Shown here piece after piece: positions 2,122 through 22,297 of a DNA stretch of 23,304 bases (positions are counted from its first letter, which is position 1; each line of letters begins with the position of its first letter). The notes beneath the pieces are model-generated. The model ran no database searches, had not been told where the DNA came from, and saw nothing but the letters and a program-made list of their open reading frames with translations. The translations under genes and the position numbers were made by a program. This stretch comes from a virus. The stretch is from IMG/VR virus record IMGVR_UViG_3300035201_000188, positions 1 to 23,304 of that record; one strand, 5' to 3'.

Positions 2122-5100
2122 TTAAGTAGAATAACCAACAGTTCTCAATTTAGGGTTCCTCATTATCATATCGCCAGTAGAGAGTCCAGCAAATCCGTTC
2201 TCTCCATAATAGACATATGAATTAGCCCTCTGTCTAGAACTACATGTAATCTTACCCCAACTATATTCACCAAAGTATGCTTGACCATTAGTAGAAGTAG
2301 AAATTGTACCTGCATAGACGTTACCACTTGCCTCATTATCAAGTTTTAATGTATCAGAATCGAATGTGATTCCTCCAGAATCCCAGTTCTCAGTACCAAT
2401 ACCCGTTAAGATTGTTGTATGGATTCTGGTAACAGATGTTGTACCAATTCCTATAACTTGCCGTTCAATAATATCTCTAGTATTAACTTGGAAGACAGAA
2501 TCAACAAATTCTGTAGAAACTCCGATTACACGATCATCTATTGATTTTGATGTGAATGGTGTTGCCCCAATTCCGGCACCTGTATCAGCAACTCCAACGT
2601 TGGAATTGTAAATAACAAAGTAATCTTGTGGATTTAATCCACATTGAGTTACTGCTGTTCCAGTTATTGTAGCATCTCTTAAATAAGAATCCTCCGGAAT
2701 ATATAAGTCAAAGATTAATTCAGGACCAGATGTTGTAGTTGTTGTACCAAATCCAACAATCCTTCCAGAGTCCCCAACCCAAGATTCGGGACTATTATCT
2801 TCTCTTGTATATGTAGGAGGACTAATTAATACAAGAGGAGCAGATGTTTGTGTATATCCAGCACCAGGAGTGGTAATAGTAATAGATGTAACAACACCTG
2901 CAGTAATAGATGCCGTTGCTTCTGCTCTAGCAGTTGTTCCTAATCCAACAGGATTCTGAATATTAACCTGAGGAGCACTTAAATACCCTCTACCACCAGT
3001 CGATATTGCAACTGATATAACCGTAGAACCTGTACCAATAAATGCAGTTGCAGCAGCACTAACTTTATCATCCTGAGAAACTAAAGCGATATCCTTCTGG
3101 AAAGTTACACTTACATCATTTTCATTATATGGATCAAAGAATGGTCTTAAATTATCAACATAAATGATAGTAGTTCCAACACCTACTGGTTGAGTTAAAT
3201 ATGCGTATGGGAAAATATTAGCCTGATATAATTCGCGATCTTTTGAAACAATTTTTCCATCAACATACTTATCTTCAAGTTGCCTACACCAAGTAAGAGG
3301 TCTTTGTATTTTAGTATCATCAATTAACCCTGGTCCGAAGAAGGGCATTGTATCTACTGCATCTGTAGCAGTAACTTCGGCAACAGTACGTGTATCTTGC
3401 TGGAGGAAATAATTGTCTTTATCATTTACTCTTGAATCATAATTAAGTTGAATTTCATCACCACGTTTGATAGTTTCTATAACTGAAACATCAACAACGT
3501 CACCACCACCAGTTCCCTTATAGAAGAGGAACTTCATTGTGTCGCCGTTATACTCTCCATTTGCTGTTGGACCTTTTGGTGCTTCACTAAATGTTATAGA
3601 ACTTCCACCATCAAACTCATATCCTTGTCCAGGAACCTGTAAAATATCGTTAATAAAGACGAGAATAGTATCTTGAACTGTTATCAGTGAACCTCTCTTT
3701 GCTACAATTGAATAAGGAAGGCCATTAAGTTTAATTGGGAATTTCCTCCTAACTCCATCAAATAGATCAGAGAAGTTATCAAGAACTTGAAGTTGTCCTA
3801 CTGACCATCCCGTAAATACATCATAATCAGCTTCCTCTACTGTTAATTGGAATTCATTAAAGTTAGCACTTGATGTAGTAGGAATTCCTGTTGTTCCTGT
3901 TAATGGTAATGTAAGGATATGTCCAACATTATAACCATATCCAGTATTCTTAACTTCAAAATCAATTACGGTAGAACCCATACTAACATTAACATCAATA
4001 GTTGCTTGTGCTCCACCAGTACCAGGAGAATCTGAACTATATGCAAGAGGAATATCAGTATAAGAAAGAGGATCATCAATTACAACATTCATTAATCTTT
4101 CAATACTTCCACTTCTTGCATATAAGTGCTGATATTCTGATTTACCACTATTAACAGTAAATGACTTAGTATCAATAATCGTAATAATAGTTGCTCCACT
4201 TGCAGCAGCATCAGTTCCTCTAGGTACTAATAGTGCTTCCTGAATTACTCCTCCACCTTGATAGTATTTCGCAAGTGTTGCTATTCCAGCACTTATTGAA
4301 AGTTCTGTAACTGTTGTACCAATTCCAACAACTTCCATACCACGATAGTTGTCAGTTGGTACTCTTGGATAGGTATGATTTGTAGCATTACCATCCTTAG
4401 TGCAATTGAAGGTTAACGAATCTGTAGCAATCTTAATATTTCTTCCTGTCCTTAAACTATGACCCATTCCCACATTAAGAACTAAATCACCAGTTGCGGC
4501 ATTGTATGATGTAGCAGAACTACCAGAACCAACAGCAACATCATAATAAACGATTGTTGTTATACCAACATTAAGAGTGATTGTAGTAGCAGTAGTTGCA
4601 GCAATTGAAACCTTATTCGCTGATATTGGGTCAGTAGACCTTGGATATGAATGATAACTAGCATTTCCATCCATATCACAAGTAAATGACATAGATTCAT
4701 CAACAATCCTTACACTCTGTCCTGTTATTAACTTATGTGCTTCTGCAAGAGTTAATACAAGCACTCCAGTTGAAGGTGTATATACCGCATTTGTTACATC
4801 ATGAGTTCGAGCAGTATTAATACCAACATTTACGGTAAAGGTATCAGTTGTAAATCTTGTGATAGGTATTGCATCATTGTTTGCAATAGGATCATTTGCA
4901 CGAGGATATGCATGGTCAGTATTATGCTGATCCATTTCACAAGAGAATGTTATTGCACTCGTAGCAATTCCAACAAAATTACCAGTATTTAAACCATGAC
5001 CAACAATTGTAAGAGTTAATTCACCAGTTTCCCCATTATACGTTGCACTTGTAGGAGTGGTTGTACCAACTCCAGCTGCAGTAACCCCTCCATCAACTGC

Positions 5101-8100
5101 ACTTACAAATGTATGAAGATAATTACCTCCAGATTTTACTCCACCTTTTTGAGCATAAGCAAAGTTATGTGTGTAGTTACCACCAGAAACTATTGCGCTA
5201 GTTGCAGCACTGACGAATGTATGCGTATATTGATCATTCTCTCCAGCAGAACCAACGTTAACGGTGATTGTTGCACTTTGATGAATAAGTCCACTTGCTT
5301 TTGCTGATACAAATGTATGAGTACTTGTATTACTGGAAGGTGCATTAGTTAATACATTAACTCTAAAGGTATTAGTTGTCTTATTTGAAATTGTTAACCA
5401 TTCACCACTAACCGGATCTGTTGCTCTAGGATATTCGTGCTGAGTCTTATGATCATTCTTAGCACAAGTAAATGTTAATGACTTATCAACTAATCTAATC
5501 TTGTCCCCATTGGAGAATCCATGAGCAGGAACTGTAAGAGTTAATACACCAGTAGTAGGGTTATATGATGCATTAGTTACTGTATATGCTGTACCATCAC
5601 TTGTAATCTCAACAGAAGTATCATATGCTTGATCTTTTCCGTGTGGATAGTAATCGGTAGTAAGACCAGAATGACCAGTAAATCCTAATCCAGTTAGGAT
5701 AGCAGTATCACCAACCTTCATCTTATGACCATATCCTATATGACCACCAGAAGAATAAGTATGTGTTAGTGTACTAATACCAGCAGTAAACTTAATAGCA
5801 GTAGGACTTGGAATACTTACTATAGTAAATGTATCTCCTGTTGCAGTATCTGAATTTGGCCAAGTAGTTGAACCATAATCAGTTCCAGAACGAGCAAGTC
5901 CAACATTTAATCCAGCAAGAGTGAAACTTCTACCAACACCCGTCTTATGAGCAATATTATGAGCTGATGCTAATGTAACTGTACCTACTCCAACCGCATT
6001 ATCATATGAGAAAGTTGTAACTCCTACAGTATTCAACCCAACACTTACGGTCATAATACCGCTTGCTGCATGGAAAGATGCAGTTGATATTGACATCGAA
6101 CCTGCATAATTACAGGTCATTGCTAATCCGCTAATCTTAACTTCATCACCAACTACCATTTCATGTGGTTTGAATGTTGTGATTGTGGCAATACCTGTTA
6201 CAGAATTATACCCAACATTAACAATATCTCTTGGAGTATAAAGTATTCCAGAATTTGTAATTGCAATCCCAGTTATATGACCATCAACAATCTGTGCTGT
6301 ACCCATCCCAATAAAGGAGGATCTATCTAGATAACTTTGTTCCTCTAAATTACTTGATGTTTGTATTGCAACATTAACAGTTTGAAGACCAACTCTATAT
6401 CCAGAACCAGTATTTCCAATTGAAATTGCACTAACTGTACCTGCAGAAGAAACTGTTACGGTACCACCAGCAGATACTAGAGGTTGATATCCAAATCCAT
6501 CAGTTGAACTAACAGAAACGATAACACCACCAACAGGAATATTTGCGTTATTGGGGTCAAATCCAACAGAACTTGCAGTTCCAGTGAAGGTAATTGTAGA
6601 AGCAGATCCCGCCTCACTCATTGTGTAGTTATTAACTAATCCAGGACCTTGGAATACGCCATTGATTATAATAATGGCATTATTAGTGGCAATTCCAGTA
6701 ACATTGGCATTATCTACTGTTAATGGGAATTCTTTAGTATACCCAGTAAATTTCTGGGAAATGTCATCATAAAGGTAGTTCTTCGTATATGTTTCTTCGG
6801 TACCATTTGGTATTCCTCCACGCATGAAGACCCTACCCTGGAAACTAGATGCTGTTGTAATACCTACCCAATCTCGTTCATCTGGTGGATTTGTGGTAGA
6901 ACCCATGGGTTGTTGACCATGAGGTGGTTCAATAAAGTGAACATTATTCTCAACAACATTATAATGACCTCTAATTTTTTGAACAGTTGTTCCCGTGGTA
7001 AATCCCGCTTCAGGAGTTCCTAACCACCCACGTCTAACTTTAATTTGGTTTGTTGATCCAATACCAACAGAAAGTATCTTCATACATTCTATCGTATTAC
7101 CACTACCAACTTGAATATAATCAGCCCCCGCAAACGATGAGATTCCAGTAAATTTAATAACATCCTGAGCCAATGCAGCACTATCTGCTAAAGTTGTAGT
7201 AACAGATGTTCCCGCAATTGGGGATTGAATCATATTATCAATCGCAAATAGAACTTTCTGATTTGGATTTACTCCAGTTAAGGAGTGTGATGTTCCAATA
7301 CCAACAGAACTAATATCTAATGGGACTGGTATAGAAGCTAATGCATCTTCAGCAGACCTTGCAAGTTGGATTTTATTTTCACTCTTCTTAATAACAAAAA
7401 CTGAACTTGGTGTAAATGTTGTTGCTCCAATACCAGCAAAAGTTGTATTTGCTATTCCAATAGCATCTGTAGTAAAACCACTAGAAACAGAATACTTAAC
7501 TTCTTCACCACTTACAAAGAAATGATTTGATAGTTCAATAGTATTATCAGCAACATTAATAGTAACTGGACTTGATCCGTCAAAGTTCCTTCTAAAGATA
7601 TCTTCTGTTTTATAAGATAAATTAAATGCTTTTCTAACCGTATTTTCTGTTCCTTCATATGTTGCACCATTTGATTCAATCGTAGCATTATTAAATTCTT
7701 TTAATATTTCTCCACCAACTTCTCTACCTCCAGGGATATTAGTATTCTCATCAACACGAAGAACATTCATGAAAATCTTAACATCAATATCTCTACCAGA
7801 AGCAGGTCTATAGGTAATCTCTGTCCTATCTTCAGACGCTCTTCTTCCACTAAGAGTACCTAAATCAGTGAAAGCAGTACCAACATGAACTTCACCATAC
7901 TCATTTAAGTATACTTGATTAGCAGCATCTGCTGCATAATCGTCAACAATAAGAAGTTCTGATAAACAATGGGAATTAGTAGCTGGATCAGTTGCTTGAA
8001 TTATACAATATGCAGCATCATAATCATCACTATAACTTCCAATACCAACTTCATCAGGATCAGCAGAAGCCTCCATAAAGGTGCTCTGAGTCTGCATAGT

Positions 8101-11100
8101 ACCATAAGTAAAGTCGTATGAAGACTCAGATGTATTCTTATATCCTTCAGTAGAGAATGCTACTGCAATTGCATTAATCCTTGTTGTTGTAAATCCTGCT
8201 TCAGGTGTATACTTAAGAACAATATCTTGACCATTCATATAAGAATAGAATGTTCCAATATTACCTGTTGATGAATATGGATCTTGATAACTATGGATAG
8301 TTAATTGACCATATTCCATCCAAGAAACTTCTGTTCCATCACAAATTAAACTTACTTCATCATATTCAACTCTTCCAGTATCAGTTTCGGCAGTAACCAG
8401 TATCTTTGCAGACCTGGTACCCGATATATTGGTTCCAACTCCAACAAACCTATAAATTTCGTCTGCAGCACCACCTGCTATTGAAACGTTTGTACTTGCA
8501 ATACTAATTAAACTTCCAGTAAAATCTGTTGATATACCAAGTGTTGTACTTCCAATTGAAGGAACCGAAGTCTCAATTCCAAGAACATTCCTATCAATAT
8601 TATATGAGAACGTTCTTACATTATAATTGTTTACTTCATACTTAGTTGGATAGAATCTAAGAACACTTTCACCACCTTCGAAGGTATAATCAAAACCTCC
8701 AAGGTCACTAACAGTACTAACATCACCATACTGGTTAATCATCGAGAAACCACGATCAATGTCATGTAGAGCATTGATCATCATTATCTGTCTCTCACCA
8801 CCATACAATCTGTCTCTTATGAGAGCAACAATCTTCTGACTTCTACCATCTTTAACGGATTGCCTTAAAATATCAGAATATCTTGTTGTTCTTGCATTAT
8901 CGTCAAAATACTGACTAATATCATCTACATTCAGAACTCTATTTCCAATAGACTCTGCATAATCGGTTAAAATACGATTTTTAATCGTAACTTCGTCAGA
9001 GAATGGTCTATCAGCAATAAAGTAATTCTCAGTAGCTAAATCGAAGATCTCAACACAATGTAGACTTTCTTCACCCAGCATATCAACAACAACAGTTGTA
9101 TCGCCAACAGGAATAGGATGAAGAGCATCTTGATCATCAGATGATGATTCCATCTGGAAATCACTCCACTTCCGGAATCCTGCAGTATGGTTTAATGCAC
9201 TAACAACATCTTTCCAATCTTCATAAGTAACTCTAGATTTAATAGAATATGAGAAATTCTGATAGTAATCGTTATCATGTATTCTTTGTAATTCATCATT
9301 CAAAAATCCGGTAGTATATTCCCAACCATTGTCAACAATTGCATAGTAATCTAGGTCATACTTTGCTTCAAATCCAAGTTTTCCAATAATCGTCGCTTTA
9401 GCACCTGTTTCTTGAGTTTCAAGAATTTTACCAAGTGTAAATTCTCGGTTACTTTCTACAGTTAACTCAGAATTTTCTTCATCCCATCTAGATATTACAC
9501 CAGACGCTAAGCCATCACTTACTGTCTCACCAACATTAAATAAATTATCTTTTAAGGTAGGAGCAAATCGTGGGAAAAATCTCTGTGGGGTTATTATTAC
9601 AGACGAATTAACACTATCAAATTGTCCTGGCAATTGATTATCTGCTTTAATAAGATGATCTGCCATGCTCCAAGATATTGTTGGATAAGCTCCTAAATTA
9701 GTACTTACACCACTTATAGTGAATAAATCATAATCATATTGAGAAGAATTATAACCATTACCAGTTGAAGCAACACCAACACTGGCATTCTCAACCATAA
9801 TATTCATTCCAACTTCAAACCAAAAATCTTCAACTCTACTACATGGAGTTCTTACCGTAGCAGTTGCTATTTGAGTATTTGAATCATAACTAATATCTTT
9901 AAATCTAACTCCATTTGGATTACCTATAGGTAAAATTGTAGGAGTAGTATTATACATACTATTCGAATTTTTAAGAATATTAACTTTCTTTTGAGCAGCA
10001 TTATATTCTAGATCAATATCAGTAACTATTTTCTTTGTTTTACCATCAAGAACAACCAAACTTGGTGGTGTATTATAGCCTCTTCCCACTGAAGTAATAC
10101 CAATAGCATTAAATCCAGTCAATTGTTCAAGAGTTAATACTTGTGGGAAAATTGCCCGTGGTCTTAATGTCTTATCTGTAGGATAATCAAATCCAACATT
10201 TTCTATAGAGGTTTTCTTAACTCTTCCAATATTATCACTAGAAGATTCTAATATAACTCCTGTTCCTAAATCAGAAGTTACTGTAGTAATTCCAGGTAAT
10301 TCTAAATACCCATTTCCACTACTAGTAATTTTAACATCGGTAATACGACCCACTGCAGTTGTAGAATCTGTATCATATTCTACAGTTGATGCAGAACCAG
10401 AATATGAAGTAACTTCAGGATATTTTGGTATATCGTAAATAAACGTATTTGATGATTGTTGGAGAATATTAAATCTTCCAGCATAAGCACTTTTTTTAGT
10501 TATAATTTCATTGTTAGAAGCAACATCCGCATCTGTTACAATTTCCTTATTAATCTTAGGATTTTCGGGTAAATCTACTGGATTTAATCTATAATAGAAT
10601 AATGATGGAGTATATTGATTAATTTTTAATGTTACTTTAGCATCAGTTGATACTCCAATATCACCAGTTTGAATAATATCAAATTCTTTACCTACACCAT
10701 TTGTTTGATATCTTTGGGTATATTGAGAATCTAGATAAAATTCTAATTCAAATGCTGGATAATCTGTAGAACTTTGTCTATAAGATAAAGAAGAATCTGA
10801 TAAATCAAAAGTTATAGTAGTATCATCATAATAAGTTAATGGTGGATTAACTAGACAAAGTGTTCCAACATTTGCAGTCGTAATACCAACAAATGTTGGA
10901 ATTCCTTTTTGAGTCTCATACTTATCAGCAGTAAGTTTAATTCTATCCCTATCAATAACATAAACAAAATATTCTCTCTTATCAATCAATCCACCTGAAG
11001 GAGTATCGGATTTATGAATTATCTTTTGACCAGTAACTAAATTATGATTAGGAATAGAAATTGAATTTGGATTTCCTGTTATAGAAGCAGAAGTTGTAAT

Positions 11101-14100
11101 ACCACTGGCAGTAAAATATAATCCACCTGCAAACATTTTTCTATTTGTAGGATCATACTTTATCGTCGTAATACCAGTATTTCTTGGATTAATACTAACA
11201 ACAACTTCGTCCTTATGACGTAATCTGTGAGATGAAGCACAAGCAACGGTTACTAAATTTTGCTCTATTGATCCTTTTACAATATCATTATACTTTATTG
11301 TTTTAAAACTATGATAAAAACCAGTTCCTACACCACTAAAATAAGCCAATCCTTGATGAGATGTAGTATCTGCAGTTCCAACATATGATCCAGTTGAACC
11401 CAATCCAACCCTAACTGTTGATATACCAATTAAGTCATGACTTACTCTAGTAACATATAAAGATGAATAAGATGTAAGATCTATTTTATCACCAGTAGCA
11501 ACTTGATTTGCGGATGTAATAATCCCAATAGCATCAGCACCTAATGAATTTGTATGATATGTTACTTGATCACCAGTCTCTAATTCATGACCACGTAGAT
11601 AAATTGTTTGTGATGGTACAAAATGTTGTGTTGCTCCTGCTCCAGGATTTGCAAAGAATACGGTAGTACCTGCTCCTGTCAAAGTACCTGCAAGACCTAC
11701 AGGGAAAGCACTTCCCAATCCAACAGATTCTATTGGATTAAAATAGTATTCTCTATTGATTCTAGAAGTATATGAAGTATTAGCTGAAGAAACAAAAGTA
11801 AATTTCCTAGGAACTTCCTTTATAGTTGTTGTTGCAGTGTGAGATAATCCAGTTTGAGCTTTTAAATCTCTTAAAACTCTAACCCTAGAATTATATCGGT
11901 CTATATTTAATACTCTAACATACTCATCACCAAAGAAACCTGTTGTTAAAATACCAGCTAAACGTAGAACATCATTTTCCTTTATAGATGGATATCTTAA
12001 ATCACCTTTAACTGAGAGATACGTAACAATACCAGTAACTCCTTCAGTTGCAATTCCAACTTCTAATTGAAGTACATTGGTGCTAATACCAATGTTATAT
12101 GAACCTTCAAGTTTAGAATTTGTAGTGTTAATCCCAGAAAGTGATAAGAGAGTATTGTTTATAAATCCATGACTAGTTGTAGCGAATCCAACAAAAGCAC
12201 CAGGTCTACCTTCTAATGGATAAAACTCAACATCCTCCATTTTAGAGGCAGTTATAGAAATTGTTCCTATTCCAGAACCAGCAACTCTTGAAACTTTACC
12301 AGCTGCACCAAAAGTATTTGGAATATCCTTTTCAAAAACTAACTTATCACCAACTTTATAATTTGTTCCTCCTGTAAGTATACCAACTGAAGTTACACCA
12401 CCCTTTTCAGCAAACCTAATAACAGAATCAGTTGGGATATAATTATAAGGTTCAATTACATAATTATATCCACTATGATCCTTATCTAAAGAATATGGAT
12501 AAGTGTTTCTGCTCCAATCCGTTTCATTTAAATCTACTGCTTCCTGATTAGATAATCTTTCAAAGTTAAATGGTTCTGGTTTTGCATTATAAGTATCTCC
12601 AATTAAATAAGGAAATGCTGGTCTCTTATAATTAACAAATGGTCCAGTTCCTTCAACCTGTGACTCAAATGTTGCAAAGTATGCATAAGTACCATTTGGA
12701 TATTCTGGTGTTACACAGAATCTTCCATTTTTCTCATCAAGAATACCATCATCAGATGAATATGACCACTCAAAATCTTCTACAAAGAATTCTTCTGGGA
12801 ATACTGTAGTTGGAGGTCTATTTACTAATGCTACTGATCTTTCCTTATATCCAGATTTTAACTGAATAATTGAACCACCAGTTCTTGAAGTATATCCATA
12901 TGGTCCATAAATTGGATAACCATCATATGACCAACCAATAATAGGAGAGTGTTTATCAGTATTCGACTCTTGACCATTTGCAAGAGTTAAATCTTTCTTA
13001 CCATATAGAACATCGCCATCAGATCCAGATGTATAAAGAATCTTTCTTAAACTTCTAGGAGCATATAGATATGAACATTGTAATTCATAATCTTTATTTG
13101 TTGGTACAGAAATAAAGGCATCATCATTAAGTATACTTCTAAAATTCCTTCTAAATTCATTTACTCTCCATTTTTGCACCCTTGGTTTAAAGTATGCACC
13201 CTTTCCAGAAGCTACTACCTTAATTATTGTAGTAGATGAACCATAACCAATTCCACCTTTATTAACTTTTACTGAAAGAACTTTACCAGTATTTGGATCA
13301 AGTTCTGGAACTAAATCTGCTCCTGTTCCGAAACCACTAATAGCTAGAGATGGTGGTGAATTATAATCCGTTCCTCCAAAATTAACACTAACATCTACAA
13401 TATTTCCTGCAGAATTTATTACTGGAGTTATAAAAGCATCATTTCCAGACCATAATTTAACATCCGGATCTCTCTCAAAATTAAGTATTTCTGAAGAACC
13501 ATACCCAACTCCCTTTTCAATTAGATGAATTGAAGTTATTTCACCTCTTACAATTGGTTGTGCTATACATTCAAATGTATCACCTGCAATAGAAGATATT
13601 CCGACTGAACCTACTACATCTACAGTGATAGGTGGATAATTAAAACTATGAGTTCCTAAACCAGTTGATCTAAATTCAGCAAATTGGTTTGTATTATAAT
13701 AAAAATCTTTTACAGTAGTTCCAACTCCAACATTAGCTAATTTAAAAGAGTTTTCATCTAGAACTTTAATATAATAATCTAACGTAGTGGAAAGACCTGA
13801 TATAATAGTATTTTGTCCATCACCAATATCTAAAGAATATCGAACAACTTCTAAATCTTTAAACTGATGATCCTGAATGGTTATAATATCTGATGCCGTA
13901 TTAACACCAACTGGTTGGAAAGTTCTCTTTTTATTCTTATATCCAGATCCAGGATTAGTAAGAGTAATTGAACCTACTACTGCTTTACCGTTTAATGATT
14001 GTAAATCATGATTTCCTTCACCAAAATCAGTAAATCCAGTGGTACCAACACCAGCAATTGCATCAGGTAATGTTGTATATAATTTAATATTTTTATCATC

Positions 14101-16761
14101 TACTGGACCAACATAATATACTGCTCCTGTACTAAGACCTGTTAAAGACTTCTTCCCATGAGTTTCGTATCTAACTCTTTCACCTGCTCTAAATTTATGA
14201 TAAGTACTAAATCCAATAATAGACGTGTCAAGACCTACTCGAATTGCTGCATCTAATCCTGTTGCATCAAAGGTAACTATATGCTCCTTAGTAACTAATT
14301 TGGCAATTGCAGTTGCCCCTTCTCCTCCACCACCACTAATATTAACAATAGGAGTTTCAATATAATCATATCCAGGATTTAGGACTTTAATTTCTTTAAA
14401 ATTACCCTCAACAGCAACAACTCCCGTCGCTCCTGTGCCCACAGCGTCGATAATACTCAGAACGGGTGGATTTATCACATCATAGTTTTCACCGCCCTTG
14501 GTGACCTCTACAGAGTCCAATTGACCCGCATATACAGCGTCTCTGGACTTATAATTTAAAATTTCTACACCATTGATGAGAATCCCAGTATTTCCAATTG
14601 GTGTCTCATGAACCTTTCCATCATAGACTGGTTTACCTATTTTTCTTAATAGTTTTTGGGGTTGTATTTTCCTATCTTTAAAATAATATTTCTCTACAGT
14701 ATTATTTTCAATAGTAACATAATCAATACTTGTTTCAACTTCAGCAAAAATACCAGCACTGATGTTTGATCTACTCTTTGCAAATTTTACCTTATTATCA
14801 TCAATCCTGTATACAAAGTAAAGACCTTCTGAAAAGAGTTGACTCTTAACCCACTCTTGACGTATAACATTCCCTTCAGAGTCTATTGTATCAACACCAT
14901 CTTTATCTGGAGTATAATAAACAGCATCTCCAGTATAGAAATTATGGTCAACACCAGTTGTTAAAACAATTTCTGTTTCTCCTTCAATATAAGTTCCTGA
15001 AATAACTACCTTAGAATCTTTGGTATTTAATTTTAATCTACCAGTAGCTGGTAAGGAGTTTGAAGCAACTAAAACAGAATCAGAACCTACATAAATGTTT
15101 TGAATATTTGCAATAAGATTGTTTAAATTGATGTGTATATCTGAGTCTACTCTTGAAAATTCTCTACGAACATTAACAATCGTTTCGTGGATGCTTTCAC
15201 CAGTTTCACTTGGGGCTGGCAGACCTTCACCTCGAATTATGCAATTATATTCATCATAAACATCTCTTACTTCAAATTTATTATCTAAAAGAACATTATT
15301 TTTATCATACATTCTTACATTATCACCAATCCTAAGAATATTAGGATCTTTAGTGATTAATCTATAAGTAGAGTTTACTTCGTCAATTAAGAATAAGAAT
15401 TTTATATCATAATTCTGTATTGTGTTAAAAAGCCAATTATTTTCAGCGAATGAAGTACCAATTAAACCTAATGATTTAGTTTTTATTTTTGCACCTTTAG
15501 TGTAATAACGAGTATTGGGTGGAACTGTTAAATTGTTTAATACAGATCTAATTTTTACTCTTATTCCATCTGTAGTCCCTGCACCAGTATCAGAAGAATA
15601 AGCATAGGTATTTTGGTCTATAACTGCCTGATCTTTAATCGTTGCTCCAACTGAAGTTGTATTAATACCCAAAAACTGGTTAAGAGTCTTATGAGAATAC
15701 GTCGCTATTCCACTAGATCCATTTCCATAGTTAAGAGCAAGAGTACCTGAATTTGGAAATCCTAATGTTGAGTCAACATCAATATAAGTTTGTGCAACTC
15801 CTACATCACCAATTACAAGTGATTTAGCATGACTAGCAAAATTACCATTCATTAGTTCCATAGAACCATCACCTAGGTTCCATGAACTATCAAGACTAAC
15901 TTTCCAAAAAATGTTAGTACTAAGACCAATATTAATGCTTTCTACATGTGCAACTGGAGCAGATGCGGGGTCAATATTCTCAAAGTGATCCTGAAAAAGT
16001 GTTTTATTTACTAATTCTAAGGGATTTCCCATTATTGATTCTACAATAATGTCCCATGTCTTCCTAAAACCAGCATTAGACGGAGAAATCACATGATCCA
16101 TCGGTCTATGGAGGTCAGCATTCTCATTAAAGAGTGCTTTAAAGAGAATTTTAAAGGATTCGTCTGTTCCTCTTGAAGAATAAAAATCCTTTGACCTTGT
16201 AATAAAGGTTCCTTTATCTAAATCATCATGAAGATCCTTTTGAATTCCATATAATAACTGATTCTTAATCTTTCTTAAAAATTCTTCTAAAAATAAAGCA
16301 CTTAAATTCTCTACTATAGTGTCTTCTTCATGCGCTTCAGCTTCAGAAGTTGAAAAAATCAAATCTTCTGGGTTCTCTGGATTCGTGTAAGAAGTAATTC
16401 CACTAAAACCCCGAACACAATCAACAAAACTTATATCAGTCTTACTTCCATATGAAATAATCTCATTATTAATCTTTAATAATCCATTATTATCTGGAAA
16501 TCCAAACGTAGCAGGGACATTAAGGGTAGTATCGTAATCTTCAGCTCTTGTGGTGAGTGTTGTTTCCTTAGTAATATTTCCACATTCACTTAATTTTATA
16601 TACTTATCAATATTACTAATTAAATCAATTGGACCACCTTGATACTCTTGTCCTTTATAATAGGCACTCAAAAATTCACCGACTAGCGGAAATTCACTTT
16701 GGACATAAGAAGGTAATTGTTGTTTTACAATCTTATTAAACTGGACCTTTTTTTGTGCCAT
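2122..16761 (-). CDS. Giant modular baseplate/tail structural protein with YHYH domain, 4879 aa
   Basis: By far the largest gene here. Residues 1-270 are mostly helical and non-repetitive (HRPMDHV, NAGFRKTWDIIVES), a plausible baseplate-anchoring head. Beta-rich repeat territory follows. About 15 motifs of the form xxxGxGYxxxP lie near residues 755-1175, 1464, 2150-2225, 3450-3500, 4272 and 4590-4635. About 1230-1400 is a YHYH-type domain (HSPIIGWSYDGYPIYGPYGY, then CVTPEYPNGTYAYFATFE). About 2490-2525 carries YYQNFSYSIKS and AGFRKWSDF, similar to a segment of other T4-like structural proteins. About 2540-3010 is a unique acidic domain. About 3720-4165 holds four copies of a module with FTC and H-YPR-DP motifs. 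It starts 3 nt after gp6. T4 encodes gp7, gp8 and gp10 after gp6; that this protein replaces one or more of them is inference. Confidence 0.9.
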   Translation of the reverse strand: MAQKKVQFNKIVKQQLPSYVQSEFPLVGEFLSAYYKGQEYQGGPIDLISNIDKYIKLSECGNITKETTLTTRAEDYDTTLNVPATFGFPDNNGLLKINNEIISYGSKTDISFVDCVRGFSGITSYTNPENPEDLIFSTSEAEAHEEDTIVENLSALFLEEFLRKIKNQLLYGIQKDLHDDLDKGTFITRSKDFYSSRGTDESFKILFKALFNENADLHRPMDHVISPSNAGFRKTWDIIVESIMGNPLELVNKTLFQDHFENIDPASAPVAHVESINIGLSTNIFWKVSLDSSWNLGDGSMELMNGNFASHAKSLVIGDVGVAQTYIDVDSTLGFPNSGTLALNYGNGSSGIATYSHKTLNQFLGINTTSVGATIKDQAVIDQNTYAYSSDTGAGTTDGIRVKIRSVLNNLTVPPNTRYYTKGAKIKTKSLGLIGTSFAENNWLFNTIQNYDIKFLFLIDEVNSTYRLITKDPNILRIGDNVRMYDKNNVLLDNKFEVRDVYDEYNCIIRGEGLPAPSETGESIHETIVNVRREFSRVDSDIHINLNNLIANIQNIYVGSDSVLVASNSLPATGRLKLNTKDSKVVISGTYIEGETEIVLTTGVDHNFYTGDAVYYTPDKDGVDTIDSEGNVIRQEWVKSQLFSEGLYFVYRIDDNKVKFAKSRSNISAGIFAEVETSIDYVTIENNTVEKYYFKDRKIQPQKLLRKIGKPVYDGKVHETPIGNTGILINGVEILNYKSRDAVYAGQLDSVEVTKGGENYDVINPPVLSIIDAVGTGATGVVAVEGNFKEIKVLNPGYDYIETPIVNISGGGGEGATAIAKLVTKEHIVTFDATGLDAAIRVGLDTSIIGFSTYHKFRAGERVRYETHGKKSLTGLSTGAVYYVGPVDDKNIKLYTTLPDAIAGVGTTGFTDFGEGNHDLQSLNGKAVVGSITLTNPGSGYKNKKRTFQPVGVNTASDIITIQDHQFKDLEVVRYSLDIGDGQNTIISGLSTTLDYYIKVLDENSFKLANVGVGTTVKDFYYNTNQFAEFRSTGLGTHSFNYPPITVDVVGSVGISSIAGDTFECIAQPIVRGEITSIHLIEKGVGYGSSEILNFERDPDVKLWSGNDAFITPVINSAGNIVDVSVNFGGTDYNSPPSLAISGFGTGADLVPELDPNTGKVLSVKVNKGGIGYGSSTTIIKVVASGKGAYFKPRVQKWRVNEFRRNFRSILNDDAFISVPTNKDYELQCSYLYAPRSLRKILYTSGSDGDVLYGKKDLTLANGQESNTDKHSPIIGWSYDGYPIYGPYGYTSRTGGSIIQLKSGYKERSVALVNRPPTTVFPEEFFVEDFEWSYSSDDGILDEKNGRFCVTPEYPNGTYAYFATFESQVEGTGPFVNYKRPAFPYLIGDTYNAKPEPFNFERLSNQEAVDLNETDWSRNTYPYSLDKDHSGYNYVIEPYNYIPTDSVIRFAEKGGVTSVGILTGGTNYKVGDKLVFEKDIPNTFGAAGKVSRVAGSGIGTISITASKMEDVEFYPLEGRPGAFVGFATTSHGFINNTLLSLSGINTTNSKLEGSYNIGISTNVLQLEVGIATEGVTGIVTYLSVKGDLRYPSIKENDVLRLAGILTTGFFGDEYVRVLNIDRYNSRVRVLRDLKAQTGLSHTATTTIKEVPRKFTFVSSANTSYTSRINREYYFNPIESVGLGSAFPVGLAGTLTGAGTTVFFANPGAGATQHFVPSQTIYLRGHELETGDQVTYHTNSLGADAIGIITSANQVATGDKIDLTSYSSLYVTRVSHDLIGISTVRVGLGSTGSYVGTADTTSHQGLAYFSGVGTGFYHSFKTIKYNDIVKGSIEQNLVTVACASSHRLRHKDEVVVSINPRNTGITTIKYDPTNRKMFAGGLYFTASGITTSASITGNPNSISIPNHNLVTGQKIIHKSDTPSGGLIDKREYFVYVIDRDRIKLTADKYETQKGIPTFVGITTANVGTLCLVNPPLTYYDDTTITFDLSDSSLSYRQSSTDYPAFELEFYLDSQYTQRYQTNGVGKEFDIIQTGDIGVSTDAKVTLKINQYTPSLFYYRLNPVDLPENPKINKEIVTDADVASNNEIITKKSAYAGRFNILQQSSNTFIYDIPKYPEVTSYSGSASTVEYDTDSTTAVGRITDVKITSSGNGYLELPGITTVTSDLGTGVILESSSDNIGRVKKTSIENVGFDYPTDKTLRPRAIFPQVLTLEQLTGFNAIGITSVGRGYNTPPSLVVLDGKTKKIVTDIDLEYNAAQKKVNILKNSNSMYNTTPTILPIGNPNGVRFKDISYDSNTQIATATVRTPCSRVEDFWFEVGMNIMVENASVGVASTGNGYNSSQYDYDLFTISGVSTNLGAYPTISWSMADHLIKADNQLPGQFDSVNSSVIITPQRFFPRFAPTLKDNLFNVGETVSDGLASGVISRWDEENSELTVESNREFTLGKILETQETGAKATIIGKLGFEAKYDLDYYAIVDNGWEYTTGFLNDELQRIHDNDYYQNFSYSIKSRVTYEDWKDVVSALNHTAGFRKWSDFQMESSSDDQDALHPIPVGDTTVVVDMLGEESLHCVEIFDLATENYFIADRPFSDEVTIKNRILTDYAESIGNRVLNVDDISQYFDDNARTTRYSDILRQSVKDGRSQKIVALIRDRLYGGERQIMMINALHDIDRGFSMINQYGDVSTVSDLGGFDYTFEGGESVLRFYPTKYEVNNYNVRTFSYNIDRNVLGIETSVPSIGSTTLGISTDFTGSLISIASTNVSIAGGAADEIYRFVGVGTNISGTRSAKILVTAETDTGRVEYDEVSLICDGTEVSWMEYGQLTIHSYQDPYSSTGNIGTFYSYMNGQDIVLKYTPEAGFTTTRINAIAVAFSTEGYKNTSESSYDFTYGTMQTQSTFMEASADPDEVGIGSYSDDYDAAYCIIQATDPATNSHCLSELLIVDDYAADAANQVYLNEYGEVHVGTAFTDLGTLSGRRASEDRTEITYRPASGRDIDVKIFMNVLRVDENTNIPGGREVGGEILKEFNNATIESNGATYEGTENTVRKAFNLSYKTEDIFRRNFDGSSPVTINVADNTIELSNHFFVSGEEVKYSVSSGFTTDAIGIANTTFAGIGATTFTPSSVFVIKKSENKIQLARSAEDALASIPVPLDISSVGIGTSHSLTGVNPNQKVLFAIDNMIQSPIAGTSVTTTLADSAALAQDVIKFTGISSFAGADYIQVGSGNTIECMKILSVGIGSTNQIKVRRGWLGTPEAGFTTGTTVQKIRGHYNVVENNVHFIEPPHGQQPMGSTTNPPDERDWVGITTASSFQGRVFMRGGIPNGTEETYTKNYLYDDISQKFTGYTKEFPLTVDNANVTGIATNNAIIIINGVFQGPGLVNNYTMSEAGSASTITFTGTASSVGFDPNNANIPVGGVIVSVSSTDGFGYQPLVSAGGTVTVSSAGTVSAISIGNTGSGYRVGLQTVNVAIQTSSNLEEQSYLDRSSFIGMGTAQIVDGHITGIAITNSGILYTPRDIVNVGYNSVTGIATITTFKPHEMVVGDEVKISGLAMTCNYAGSMSISTASFHAASGIMTVSVGLNTVGVTTFSYDNAVGVGTVTLASAHNIAHKTGVGRSFTLAGLNVGLARSGTDYGSTTWPNSDTATGDTFTIVSIPSPTAIKFTAGISTLTHTYSSGGHIGYGHKMKVGDTAILTGLGFTGHSGLTTDYYPHGKDQAYDTSVEITSDGTAYTVTNASYNPTTGVLTLTVPAHGFSNGDKIRLVDKSLTFTCAKNDHKTQHEYPRATDPVSGEWLTISNKTTNTFRVNVLTNAPSSNTSTHTFVSAKASGLIHQSATITVNVGSAGENDQYTHTFVSAATSAIVSGGNYTHNFAYAQKGGVKSGGNYLHTFVSAVDGGVTAAGVGTTTPTSATYNGETGELTLTIVGHGLNTGNFVGIATSAITFSCEMDQHNTDHAYPRANDPIANNDAIPITRFTTDTFTVNVGINTARTHDVTNAVYTPSTGVLVLTLAEAHKLITGQSVRIVDESMSFTCDMDGNASYHSYPRSTDPISANKVSIAATTATTITLNVGITTIVYYDVAVGSGSSATSYNAATGDLVLNVGMGHSLRTGRNIKIATDSLTFNCTKDGNATNHTYPRVPTDNYRGMEVVGIGTTVTELSISAGIATLAKYYQGGGVIQEALLVPRGTDAAASGATIITIIDTKSFTVNSGKSEYQHLYARSGSIERLMNVVIDDPLSYTDIPLAYSSDSPGTGGAQATIDVNVSMGSTVIDFEVKNTGYGYNVGHILTLPLTGTTGIPTTSSANFNEFQLTVEEADYDVFTGWSVGQLQVLDNFSDLFDGVRRKFPIKLNGLPYSIVAKRGSLITVQDTILVFINDILQVPGQGYEFDGGSSITFSEAPKGPTANGEYNGDTMKFLFYKGTGGGDVVDVSVIETIKRGDEIQLNYDSRVNDKDNYFLQQDTRTVAEVTATDAVDTMPFFGPGLIDDTKIQRPLTWCRQLEDKYVDGKIVSKDRELYQANIFPYAYLTQPVGVGTTIIYVDNLRPFFDPYNENDVSVTFQKDIALVSQDDKVSAAATAFIGTGSTVISVAISTGGRGYLSAPQVNIQNPVGLGTTARAEATASITAGVVTSITITTPGAGYTQTSAPLVLISPPTYTREDNSPESWVGDSGRIVGFGTTTTTSGPELIFDLYIPEDSYLRDATITGTAVTQCGLNPQDYFVIYNSNVGVADTGAGIGATPFTSKSIDDRVIGVSTEFVDSVFQVNTRDIIERQVIGIGTTSVTRIHTTILTGIGTENWDSGGITFDSDTLKLDNEASGNVYAGTISTSTNGQAYFGEYSWGKITCSSRQRANSYVYYGENGFAGLSTGDMIMRNPKLRTVGYST
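4265..5600 (-). repeat. Four-copy protein repeat (FTC...HxYPRxxDP module) in giant gene
   Basis: Coding repeat spanning residues of about 3720-4165 of the giant protein. Each unit of about 75-80 residues reads: YN-x-x-TG-x-L-x-LT, then a H-x-L-x-TG turn, then S-(L/I/M)-(T/S)-F-(T/S/N)-C, a D/H/N-rich loop, H-x-YPR-x-x-DP, and a final T-x-T-(F/I)-x-(V/L)-NV strand. The four histidine-YPR motifs are HEYPRATDP, HAYPRANDP, HSYPRSTDP and HTYPRVPTD. Between units 1 and 2 lies a separate insertion of short HTFVSA-type repeats (about 5100-5320). More diverged relatives seem to lie upstream in the protein (about residues 3500-3720). Boundaries are estimates by eye. Confidence 0.75.
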
Positions 16762-16764
16762 GTT

Positions 16765-18699
16765 TTATCTTACAATGCTTCTAGCGTTATAACTTGGAGT
16801 AACCCTATAGGTAGTCCCTGATGGATCTGAACCAGAACTAATTTCATCAATAACCATGTCAACATTACTTCTGTCTAGTTGTAAATACAAATCCTGCAAC
16901 CCAATAACATCATTTGATTCTGGAATTGCTGATATTTCCATGATTTGTACGTTATCTTTTATTTTACCAGACACTATATTTATTGGGTTTAGTGTAATGC
17001 GTCCTTTCTCATAGTCAATTGCACCTACATTTCGCCTTACAGGTACTGAAGGTGTATTCCTGTCTCCAGGTAATGTAAATAATCCAATTTTACCCCTTTT
17101 CTTATCTGAATCTGGAATATCATATAAGTAGACTTCATCAGATATATCTAATACTCTAAAAGCACTAGATCTGATATTATAACCTTCCATTGAAGAAATA
17201 TGGAACTGATTACCAAAATCAATCGCATATTCTGCAAATTGGTTAGTAGCAAGTCTCAAATCTCTTCTTATTTGAATAGTAGTAATATTAGAAGTTACTG
17301 CTTCATGGCTTTGGTCAATAATCTTCAAAAATTTACTATATTTGAATCTAGCACCATATTTGTTCAATTCTGCGGAATCTGCATACCCATCAATATTAGA
17401 TTTTACAAGAGTAGAGACTCTTGCGACATTTTTTGCTAAATTTACGTTATAATAGACATTACTGTTAGTTTCAATGAACAAATACTTCAAATCAAGGATT
17501 TGGGGGACAATTCCTGCTACAGAGTACTTTTTAAGAGCTCTTTTGATATTTTCTTTAACTGCATTTGATACAAAGTCGCCAGTTCTTGGTTTTATGCTAA
17601 TAAAGACCTTTCCATACTGTGGAGGAACTAATTCTTCACCTCCATAAACAGAAATTGACTCTGTATCGGGATAAATCTTGTTTGGAATCAAAATTTCATA
17701 GTCATTTGCCGTCAATGCTCTATTTTGAGTCGCATATACCTGTGGAGCATACTTTTTAACGGAATTTGTGCTTTCAATCACCTGTCCTCCGGATGAGGGG
17801 TTATTTGAAGTGATTAAAGAGACGCCACTAGTGATATTTACTGTAGATTCGTTACGAATATAGAATACTTTTCCACTAAAACTGAAATTTGATATTCCAT
17901 TAGCAGATTCACCTGTAGTTTTAACGTAAGTAGCTTCAACAACGTTTCCATCTTGTAAAGCCTTACCAAAAATCCCATCTCCGAAGATTAATTCATAATG
18001 TTCATCTTCAACTTCATGAACAAAGTATATTGGAGACGTTCCTGTGATTGTTGACCCAGTATTTTGTTCAAAAAGGTTATCTTGTCTAGTATAAGTTAAA
18101 GATACAGAAGAATTTGGACTTGGCCTTACAGCAACCCTAAGTGTATCTAAATCTATCCCTGCATTTGATAAAATAAACTTATCAAATGGATTTCTTGAAG
18201 AATATTCGAAAGATTGCTCAATAACTGTCCCTTCAAATATCTCTAAATCATCAAAAGTTGCAATTCCATCAACAACAGTAGCAGATTTGTCCTCAGTAAT
18301 CCCAAAAACGAAGGATTGTCCACCAAATTGCTTAGTTGTACCTGCAACAGGACCTTTTTTAAGGGTTACAGTGGGTGGAGTTGGGTTTACTGTTGAAATA
18401 TCGACAAAAAAGTTAATATTTGTTCTAGATGATTTTTTAGATCTTGGTAAATATCCAATATTTCTTGCAAGTGCGACAACATTCTCTCTTAATGTAGCAC
18501 TATCGATAAAAACTTCATTTGATACCATGTTGGCATTATATGAAGTAAGGTATGTGTTATATGCTAAGACATCTAATATGGTTGATAGGTTGGATCCTTC
18601 AAAATCATAGTCTGTAAAATCCGAACTAGATTTTAAGTAATCTTTGAGGGTAGTTTTAACCTGGTCGAAATCTAGACCAGTAAAGTTTAAAAGTGGCAT
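16765..18699 (-). CDS. 6: Baseplate wedge protein gp6
   Basis: Homologue of T4 gp6, the wedge subunit that joins the baseplate arms into a ring and contacts gp7, gp25 and gp53. The 644-aa length is close to T4 gp6 (660 aa). The N-terminus (MPLLNFTGLDFDQVKTTLKD, then YDFEGSNLSTILDVLAYNTY) and the region near residues 60-90 (NEVFIDSATLRENVVALARN) are characteristic of the cyanophage gp6 family and of the wider baseplate J-like group. A middle part with VTLKKG and a GDGIFGKAL loop also fits. The ATG directly follows the gp25 stop (TAA-ATG), suggesting translational coupling, and the gene ends 3 nt before the giant gene. No truncation or frameshift is visible. The upstream gp25 and a late promoter support a late virion role. 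Confidence 0.93.
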   Translation of the reverse strand: MPLLNFTGLDFDQVKTTLKDYLKSSSDFTDYDFEGSNLSTILDVLAYNTYLTSYNANMVSNEVFIDSATLRENVVALARNIGYLPRSKKSSRTNINFFVDISTVNPTPPTVTLKKGPVAGTTKQFGGQSFVFGITEDKSATVVDGIATFDDLEIFEGTVIEQSFEYSSRNPFDKFILSNAGIDLDTLRVAVRPSPNSSVSLTYTRQDNLFEQNTGSTITGTSPIYFVHEVEDEHYELIFGDGIFGKALQDGNVVEATYVKTTGESANGISNFSFSGKVFYIRNESTVNITSGVSLITSNNPSSGGQVIESTNSVKKYAPQVYATQNRALTANDYEILIPNKIYPDTESISVYGGEELVPPQYGKVFISIKPRTGDFVSNAVKENIKRALKKYSVAGIVPQILDLKYLFIETNSNVYYNVNLAKNVARVSTLVKSNIDGYADSAELNKYGARFKYSKFLKIIDQSHEAVTSNITTIQIRRDLRLATNQFAEYAIDFGNQFHISSMEGYNIRSSAFRVLDISDEVYLYDIPDSDKKRGKIGLFTLPGDRNTPSVPVRRNVGAIDYEKGRITLNPINIVSGKIKDNVQIMEISAIPESNDVIGLQDLYLQLDRSNVDMVIDEISSGSDPSGTTYRVTPSYNARSIVR

Positions 18700-19101
18700 T
18701 TATCTAGACGGTAATAACACAAATTCTAATTGTTGGGCATCAACATCAGCACCAATTATCTCAAAAGTAATTACAACATTAAATTCATTATTATCATAAT
18801 TTGGTATTGACTCTACATCCAATAAGTTGACCCTTGGTTCATAAGTATTAATAGAATATTCAATCTCTTCACGTATTGTAACTGCAGATATTTCATCAAT
18901 ATTCTCAAATAAGGATTGAGATATATTAGAACCAAAATCCGGATTGAAAATTTTCTCTCCAGGTACTGTAAATACAATATTTCTTATGGAACGAGCAATA
19001 GCAGACTCATTTTTTAAGCCAATAAGGTCATCATTAAGAGGATTACTCCTAAAGGACATACTAACGTCTTTATATTGTTGTTTTACACGCTCTAGAGGCA
19101 T
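18700..19101 (-). CDS. 25: Baseplate wedge protein gp25
   Basis: Homologue of T4 gp25, the small sheath-nucleating wedge protein; 133 aa against 132 in T4. The gp25/GPW domain covers about residues 25-118. Visible family features are NESAIARSIRNIVFTVPGEK near 30-50, then FNPDFGSNISQSLFENID and an acidic C-terminal half with NNEFNVVITFEI. In contractile injection systems this fold carries an EPR-type core motif; here YEPRVNLLDVE (about 91-101) supplies it. It is the first canonical gene of the structural operon, has a late promoter 20 nt upstream, and abuts gp6. The start is fixed by this promoter spacing and by length; the ribosome-binding site is weak. Confidence 0.94.
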   Translation of the reverse strand: MPLERVKQQYKDVSMSFRSNPLNDDLIGLKNESAIARSIRNIVFTVPGEKIFNPDFGSNISQSLFENIDEISAVTIREEIEYSINTYEPRVNLLDVESIPNYDNNEFNVVITFEIIGADVDAQQLEFVLLPSR

Positions 19102-21254: not shown

Positions 21255-21382
21255 TGGCGAATTTTTGTATATATGAAAGAAGTAATAAGGCGAAATTTTA
21301 CTGGCGGAATTTTTTTTATATCTCCGTATCTCTCTCTCGATTTGTCACCTCTGTAGGTTAGGGTTGTTTAGCTTTTTAACAA

Positions 21383-21503: not shown

Positions 21504-21532
21504 ATCATAACATAACACACAGTAACTGTCAA
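21504..21532 (-). promoter_or_regulatory. Near-consensus sigma70 promoter (TTGACA-N17-TATGAT)
   Basis: Minus strand: perfect TTGACA at 21532-21527, 17-nt spacer, TATGAT at 21509-21504. It points to the 78-aa and glycosyltransferase genes. The strongest host-type promoter in the window, so probably early. Confidence 0.75.
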
Positions 21533-21564: not shown

Positions 21565-21729
21565 CTACTGATTAAGGTCTTCTACGTATACATTAATGTC
21601 CTCATAATCACCATCCAATTCTAATACCTTTGCCCAGTCAATTTGGTGAGGATTAAAGTCACTTTCTACTGACAGATTGAGTGTAATTCTATATTGTTTC
21701 TGTGTCCCTGCTATGTTATAAAAAGACAT
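21565..21729 (-). CDS. Small acidic protein of unknown function, 54 aa
   Basis: The product begins MSFYNIAGTQKQYRITLNLS and continues with ESDFNPHQIDWAKVLELDGD and a C-terminal DINVYVEDLNQ. Alternating polar and hydrophobic residues suggest two beta strands around a short helix. The general look (xxYNI, ITLNLSVES, VYVEDL) matches tiny conserved proteins I associate with cyanophage genomes; no function is known to me. A sigma70-like promoter (21763-21791) lies about 34 nt upstream and an AATAAATA late-type motif about 75 nt upstream. There is no good Shine-Dalgarno sequence before the ATG. Confidence 0.65.
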   Translation of the reverse strand: MSFYNIAGTQKQYRITLNLSVESDFNPHQIDWAKVLELDGDYEDINVYVEDLNQ

Positions 21730-21762
21730 GGGAAATTGGGGGATTTAGAGTGTTACTATTGT

Positions 21763-21791
21763 ACTATAACATACTGTGGAAAACGTGTCAA
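21763..21791 (-). promoter_or_regulatory. Near-consensus sigma70 promoter (TTGACA-N17-TATAGT)
   Basis: Minus strand: TTGACA at 21791-21786, spacer of 17 nt, TATAGT at 21768-21763. The spacer contains one TTTTCCACA box (21783-21775), so a protein binding the box would compete with or assist polymerase. The 54-aa gene starts about 34 nt downstream of the -10. Confidence 0.7.
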
Positions 21792-22087
21792 GTTCGGTGA
21801 GTGTATTTATTGCCTTATGTGTATAAAACTGTGTGGTGTTAAGTGTTATTTCGGAGGTCTGTACTTTCTTGGGCGTTTGTGTTATAATCTGCTCGCCAAG
21901 ATCACTACAAAATATCACATTCCCACACCTAATTACCCTCCTATTTGTGAATACATTTAAAACACGAATAGAAAGCAACCTTATATTTATTCTTGCAATT
22001 AGAACGTCATTTATGATAGTTTTCCACAGATTAGGGGTATTAATTGTGGAAAACTGTGTACATACCTGTGTAATACATAGTGGAAAA
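21775..22087. repeat. Cluster of TTTTCCACA (DnaA-box-like) 9-mers
   Basis: Exact TTTTCCACA occurs at 21775-21783 (minus), 22020-22028 (plus) and 22045-22053 (minus); TTTTCCACT at 22079-22087 (minus) differs at one base. From memory, TTTTCCACA is the DnaA-box form reported around the chromosomal origin of Synechococcus. I did not notice another exact copy elsewhere in the window; one TTTTCCACT occurs inside gp6 near 17869. Confidence 0.6.
22018..22055. repeat. Perfect 11-bp inverted repeat
   Basis: AGTTTTCCACA at 22018-22028 and TGTGGAAAACT at 22045-22055, separated by 16 nt. The arms are two of the DnaA-box-like 9-mers in opposite orientation. There is no T run on either side, so an ordinary terminator is unlikely. 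Confidence 0.8.
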
Positions 22088-22117
22088 CTACTGTCCTTAT
22101 CTGTTAGTTTACCCCTG

Positions 22118-22297
22118 TTAATCGTATCCATATTCGTCCTTAATTAGTGTACGTAATTTGTCTATCTCTTTATCACTTGCATACCATACATAAGCATCAC
22201 ATAACCAGTCTAATTCCTTTGGGTTTTCTGATACTATTCTTACCAAATCATCTATCATTAAGTTTGCTTCTTTCTGCGTTAATTTGTTGTTGTTCAT
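22118..22297 (-). CDS. Small protein of unknown function, 59 aa
   Basis: Begins MNNNKLTQKEANLMIDDLVR, continues IVSENPKELDWLCDAYVWYA and ends in a charged helix (SDKEIDKLRTLIKDEYGYD). It looks all-helical and acidic, with no membrane segment and no recognised family. It starts 11 nt after the stop of the 70-aa gene, on the same strand, so it is probably the last gene of that co-transcribed set; the 388-nt non-coding region follows. The ribosome-binding site is weak. Confidence 0.7.
   Translation of the reverse strand: MNNNKLTQKEANLMIDDLVRIVSENPKELDWLCDAYVWYASDKEIDKLRTLIKDEYGYD

Follow-up and report, generated by a model that had tools for sequence, protein, structure and literature searches.

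In bacteria, promoters that are regulated by DnaA, as for example in the autorepression of dnaA, carry DnaA boxes in or near the core promoter. Replisomes of the T4 type are independent of DnaA. In T4, the minimal origins oriF and oriG consist of a promoter and a downstream AT-rich tract (PMC3016281), with transcripts priming the leading strand from R-loops. For the T4-like cyanophages, which are abundant in the ocean, both the control of middle transcription and the sites of replication start are unsettled; these phages are reported to lack motA and to use sigma70-like early promoters, with an unclear middle mode (PMC2984593). For Syn9, PMC2984593 cites a prediction of a single theta origin without giving its position. 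The cyanobacterial DnaA-box consensus is TTTTCCACA (PMC4674748). Here, an array of this 9-mer upstream of the gp25 gene of a marine T4-like cyanobacterial virus is described and compared with these systems. Published accounts of DnaA boxes at this site were not found in a literature search, which was short on subscription journals.

Results

The window, which is the whole stretch of DNA analysed here, comprises the 23,304 bases of the record IMGVR_UViG_3300035201_000188. An earlier note on this DNA had pointed to three exact copies and one single-mismatch copy of TTTTCCACA in an AT-rich non-coding stretch, with fewer than one exact copy to be expected by chance. The motif count confirmed the copies: all four boxes are located within a gap of 388 bp between an ORF at 21565-21729 (-) and an ORF at 22118-22297 (-) (Table 1), and the whole record contains zero further exact copies beyond those at 21775, 22020 and 22045, which excludes a uniform scatter. 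A 128-aa ORF overlapping the gap (21745-22131) was without a PHROG match. The expectation of less than one copy also held, as a first-order (dinucleotide) Markov model of the gap gave a mean of 0.008 exact copies and reached three copies in 0 of 20,000 trials; the probability of three random sites landing within 279 bp, the span of the three exact copies, is about 0.0004. The array of exact boxes is not a product of chance. With one mismatch allowed, TTTTCCACA is not enriched over the whole window (8 copies found, 10.5 expected). The gap does not exceed the rest of the window in AT content, the GC content being 0.35-0.36 in the gap and 0.351 in the window. The two boxes at 22020 and 22045 form a convergent inverted repeat, AGTTTTCCACA-N16-TGTGGAAAACT, with arms of 11 bp, a feature absent from the earlier note.

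Sequences upstream of dnaN from 26 picocyanobacterial genomes contained 19 exact copies of TTTTCCACA in 9.9 kb, and dnaN together with the downstream sequence of these hosts, a control of 69 kb, contained none. The reversed word was found 0 times upstream of dnaN and twice in the 69 kb. These counts and the published consensus bear out that the 9-mer is the DnaA-box form of Synechococcus, as stated in the earlier note. Host oriC regions also exhibit convergent box pairs, with a spacer of 11-12 nt in nine of ten such pairs. The array is a real host-type DnaA-box array, and its sequence suggests that DnaA would bind to it. An origin of the array by transfer from host oriC was considered and rejected, as the comparison gave just short matches centred on the boxes.

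Table 1. Positions of the boxes, predicted promoters and neighbouring features in the window.
Feature	Position	Strand	Basis
Left arm of convergent pair, exact TTTTCCACA	22020-22028	+	motif count
Right arm of convergent pair, exact TTTTCCACA, spacer 16 nt	22045-22053	-	motif count
Convergent pair; related phages carry such a pair upstream of gp25, spacer mostly 14-16	22018-22055	.	pair scan
Single-mismatch box TTTTCCACT; variant also present in host oriC regions	22079-22087	-	motif count and host comparison
Exact TTTTCCACA within the P1 -35/-10 spacer	21775-21783	-	motif count and promoter prediction
P1, predicted sigma70 promoter TTGACA-N17-TATAGT, 11/12, TG before -10, towards gp25	21763-21791	-	promoter prediction
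P2, predicted sigma70 promoter TTGACA-N17-TATGAT, 11/12, TG before -10	21504-21532	-	promoter prediction
54-aa ORF, PHROG 12516, just downstream of P1; similar small ORF at the same place in Bellamy	21565-21729	-	
Second conserved element, CCCTAACCTACAGAGGT in the window (CCCTAACCTACARAGGT in related phages)	21347-21363	-	
GTGATCTTGGCGAGCAG, tentative counterpart of the S-CAM22-type GTCTTAGCACG motif	21889-21905	-	homology tentative
gp25, baseplate wedge gene, syntenic anchor; array about 2.7-3.0 kb upstream	18700-19101	-	
gp6, baseplate wedge gene, adjoins gp25	16765-18699	-	

At least two exact boxes within 300 bp were detected in 12 of 20 complete cyanomyovirus genomes (S-CAM22, P-SSM7, Syn9, Syn33, S-SM1, Syn19, Syn1, S-PM2, S-SM2, P-TIM68, S-IOM18 and S-RIM2), and all 12 clusters are located at most 10 kb upstream of gp25. 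P-SSM2, P-SSM4, P-HM2, P-RSM4, S-RSM4, S-SSM7, S-SKS1 and Bellamy have no such cluster. In 20,000 randomisations a maximum of five genomes contained any cluster and a maximum of two a syntenic one, the 20 genomes being related and not fully independent in this test. An alignment with related cyanophages had been proposed in the earlier note, and the cluster is indeed conserved and syntenic there. Its arrangement varies: Syn1 has direct repeats, with three boxes on one strand at intervals of 12 nt, S-PM2 shows another order, and some relatives (L040, L012, L370) reach 6-7 exact boxes within about 300 bp. The pair is non-coding in the window, but in S-CAM22 and P-SSM7 an annotated small ORF overlaps it with its 3′ end. 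Isolated exact copies of TTTTCCACA were also noticed at the 5′ end of uvsY (Syn9 120824, P-SSM4 122053, S-RIM2 118195), where they are probably conserved coding sequence. One of the two exact copies in T4 (NC_000866, 115853-115861) is found near the annotated oriF, some 50 bp ahead of gene 25; this is possibly a coincidence.

A scan of viral contigs for the convergent pair, TTTTCCACA-N(8-24)-TGTGGAAAA, yielded at least 120 stretches. Among the matches listed, the spacers peak at 14-16 nt (96 of 125 pairs, a number that includes the pair of the window three times through overlapping loci), gp25 follows 2.1-8.6 kb downstream of the pair and in the expected orientation in all 60 loci containing gp25, and uvsW is located upstream in 11 of 11 loci. 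A control with the reversed motif likewise gave at least 120 loci, in which a spacer of 10 is dominant, yet gp25 or gp6 was present in 0 of the 120 listed. The abundance of the pair was therefore dropped as evidence, and it is its synteny that counts. In viral contigs that are not T4-like, the control motif, ACACCTTTT-N10-AAAAGGTGT (L463-L582), is in its own right a frequent inverted element, the spacer being fixed at 10 nt.

The order of features towards gp25 was compared in 28 non-redundant loci, chosen for containing both the pair and the second conserved element, and reads box pair, 110-360 nt, P1, small ORF, P2, 90-180 nt and CCCTAACCTACARAGGT. At least one sense sigma70-like promoter was predicted between the pair and the second element in 26 of them, with a sense promoter density of 2.59 per kb versus 0.45 antisense and 0.41 genome-wide. 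The word CTTGACA and further boxes were among the most enriched words flanking the pair. Scans for Rfam families, tRNAs and terminators gave no match at the site. Directly downstream of gp6, the window contains a single ORF of 4,879 aa (2122-16761, -), at a place where relatives have a giant virion structural protein (or gp7).

In 13 of the 20 complete cyanomyoviruses the second element occurs as a single copy, which is located 1.3-5 kb upstream of gp25, and it is absent from T4, HTVC008M, P-SSP7 and two hosts. Loci fetched by this element alone exhibited an exact box at most 1.3 kb upstream in 15 of 48 cases (reversed word: 3; permuted word: 0). CCCTAACCTACARAGGT is strongly conserved in marine T4-like phages (L324-L427 and isolates), often with TATAAAAA before and an AT-rich tract after it, and may belong to the 5′ part of a transcript, early or late, or else act as a DNA element. 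The tract mostly ranks in the top 0.1-2% of 60-bp windows and is modest with 100-bp windows. In S-CAM22-type phages a further motif, GTCTTAGCACG, is located 58-59 nt after the box pair (S-CAM22 42502), and the window (21874-21905, -) and Bellamy contain GTGATCTNNGCGAGCAG, which is related to it. As Bellamy and P-SSM4 have kept the promoters and the second element and lack the boxes, the latter appear to be a regulatory addition to a conserved core.

In the window, P1 reads TTGACA CG TTTTCCACA GTATGT TATAGT, which places the box at 21775 between the -35 and -10 hexamers. When 2.9 million viral contigs were searched for TTGACA-N-TTTTCCACA-N7-TATAAT, 41 contigs matched, of which just about 11 are non-redundant, so that they represent one phage group and not many independent gains. 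The second element is located downstream in 39 of the 41 and additional boxes upstream in 31; in all 36 that contain gp25, this gene follows downstream and on the same strand. The box of the window starts 2 nt after the -35 hexamer versus 1 nt in the 41 contigs, a shift of a single nucleotide; the 2-nt pattern itself was found in only two contigs, both unrelated and neither contributing to the counts of 41 and 39. No contig was obtained with the box moved by 3 nt as a control. The reversed 9-mer in the same promoter position was found in 26 scattered, unrelated contigs without the second element, and because of these the raw count of boxes inside promoters was dropped and only the synteny of the promoter-box contigs is used as evidence. 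The P1 spacers of S-CAM22, P-SSM7, Syn9 and S-SM1 are without a box, and just one group of marine phages has the box inside P1. Bellamy-type P1 promoters (L407, L409, L421, L332 and Bellamy from 73466 on) have a recurring spacer, ATATCTCTCAGGCATTC, in place of the DnaA box of the window's group, as if a different regulator were used.

The cumulative GC skew, which had been suggested as a further check of an origin, was calculated for ten complete phage genomes, the window being a 23-kb fragment. With most genes on one strand, the raw curve is almost monotonic, and the detrended curve has no turn at the cluster; the skew was consequently rejected as support for an origin. After strand correction the minima of the ten cyanomyoviruses fall at about 93-121 kb, which makes this region a candidate for the single origin that has been predicted. 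The gene uvsY is located at 82-122 kb in 14 cyanophages versus mostly 19-59 kb for the array site.

Discussion

The best explanation, which is put forward tentatively and at somewhat less than even probability, is that the array makes up a control region through which an early transcription unit responds to host DnaA. Its computed support consists of the identity of the motif with that of host oriC, the clustering, the synteny, the promoter architecture and the recurring box in the P1 spacer. Host DnaA would bind to the pair at 22018-22055, to the weaker box at 22079 and to the box at 21775, and would act from there on P1 and P2, two near-consensus sigma70 promoters that are predicted to read towards gp25. 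DnaA on the P1-spacer box would be expected to exclude RNA polymerase and thereby repress P1. Repression is the likely sign of the regulation because this box occupies the spacer of the core promoter right behind the -35 hexamer. The pair would serve as an auxiliary site about 230 bp upstream of P1, and P1 might open once phage copies titrate DnaA or once DnaA activity drops. Counting against this explanation, the P1-spacer box is confined to a single phage group, and most phages have the pair 110-360 nt upstream of P1, which is far for direct repression. A box overlapping or near the core promoter, as is typical of DnaA-regulated promoters, is what is found at the predicted promoters of this locus.

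The earlier note had offered an origin or a host-DnaA-responsive switch as alternatives. The switch gained from the box that the window and no fewer than 39 related contigs have in the predicted core promoter, and the origin was weakened by the skew, by the eight of 20 genomes without a cluster and by the absence of boxes from Bellamy and P-SSM4. Both readings are not exclusive, as DnaA control of P1 and P2 transcripts could also gate a transcription-primed origin. The virus probably lets host DnaA control either an early gene switch or the start of DNA copying.

That the array is a DnaA-assisted origin, recruiting host DnaA or opening the duplex beside promoters whose transcripts prime the leading strand like the R-loops of T4 oriF/oriG, is unlikely but deserves serious consideration. 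The 9-mer is identical to the host oriC box, the convergent pair occurs in both, the 6-7 boxes of some relatives are an oriC-like number, the promoter with its candidate AT-rich unwinding tract downstream would resemble the T4 minimal origins, and T4 oriF is likewise located between uvsW and gene 25. However, the detrended and the strand-corrected skew have their minima mostly at 94-120 kb and none at the cluster, the candidate melting tract is just modest, promoters and second element persist without boxes in Bellamy and P-SSM4, and homology to oriF is weakened by the distant uvsY, the neighbour of oriF in T4. It is rather doubtful that many marine T4-like cyanophages use a hybrid origin, in which DnaA on an oriC-like array would gate R-loop initiation primed by transcription; for T4-type phages this would be an undescribed mode.

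It appears quite improbable that the array is bound by another host- or phage-encoded protein whose site equals the DnaA box. The assignment to DnaA is drawn from the sequence, and the differing spacer of Bellamy-type P1 promoters would fit with regulators bound to the spacer being swapped, but the 9-mer matches the host DnaA box at every position, and the pair has a geometry close to that of host oriC. A role as decoy, in which the array copies of the phage would titrate host DnaA and stop initiation at the host chromosome like datA of E. coli, is very improbable. Good 9-mers, several per genome and multiplied by the phage copy number, would suit it, as would a conserved promoter core that can do without boxes, yet there are just 2-7 exact boxes per phage genome, and titration needs neither a fixed spacing nor a fixed place beside promoters. 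That the inverted pair acts at the RNA level, as a hairpin serving in termination or processing, is hardly credible and was rejected for lack of covariation at the bases flanking the 9-mers, with direct repeats or other orders in relatives (Syn1, S-PM2) and no terminator call at the pair, even though the pair of the window gives a good RNA fold (z = -2.4).

Conservation of a host-DnaA array at a single defined site would tie the timing of these phages to the cell-cycle initiator of their host, and the array would offer a specific and testable handle on transcription control and replication start in laboratory phages such as Syn9, S-SM1 or S-CAM22.

Among known systems, cyanobacterial oriC resembles the array in using the same 9-mer, in having several boxes within about 300 bp and in the convergent pair. 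Unlike oriC, the array has no adjacent dnaN or dnaA, its neighbours being small phage ORFs and gp25/gp6; its spacer is 14-16 versus 11-12 nt, strong predicted phage-early promoters adjoin it and the skew does not turn there. T4 oriF, also called ori(uvsY), is similar in its position between uvsW and gene 25 and perhaps in its promoter followed by an AT-rich tract, but it is located 3′ of gene 25 at uvsY with a MotA middle promoter, whereas the cyanophage array is tens of kb away from uvsY and its region contains predicted sigma70-like TTGACA/TATAAT promoters and boxes. The iterons of T4 oriE (12-nt direct repeats with an unproven role) are likewise a short repeat array at a syntenic site of related T4-like phages, but the cyanophage repeat is the host DnaA box, is mostly arranged as a convergent pair and is found at a different locus. 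With DnaA-regulated bacterial promoters the locus has in common the box in or near the core promoter; it differs from them in that here the box fills the -35/-10 spacer of a predicted early promoter of a lytic T4-like phage.
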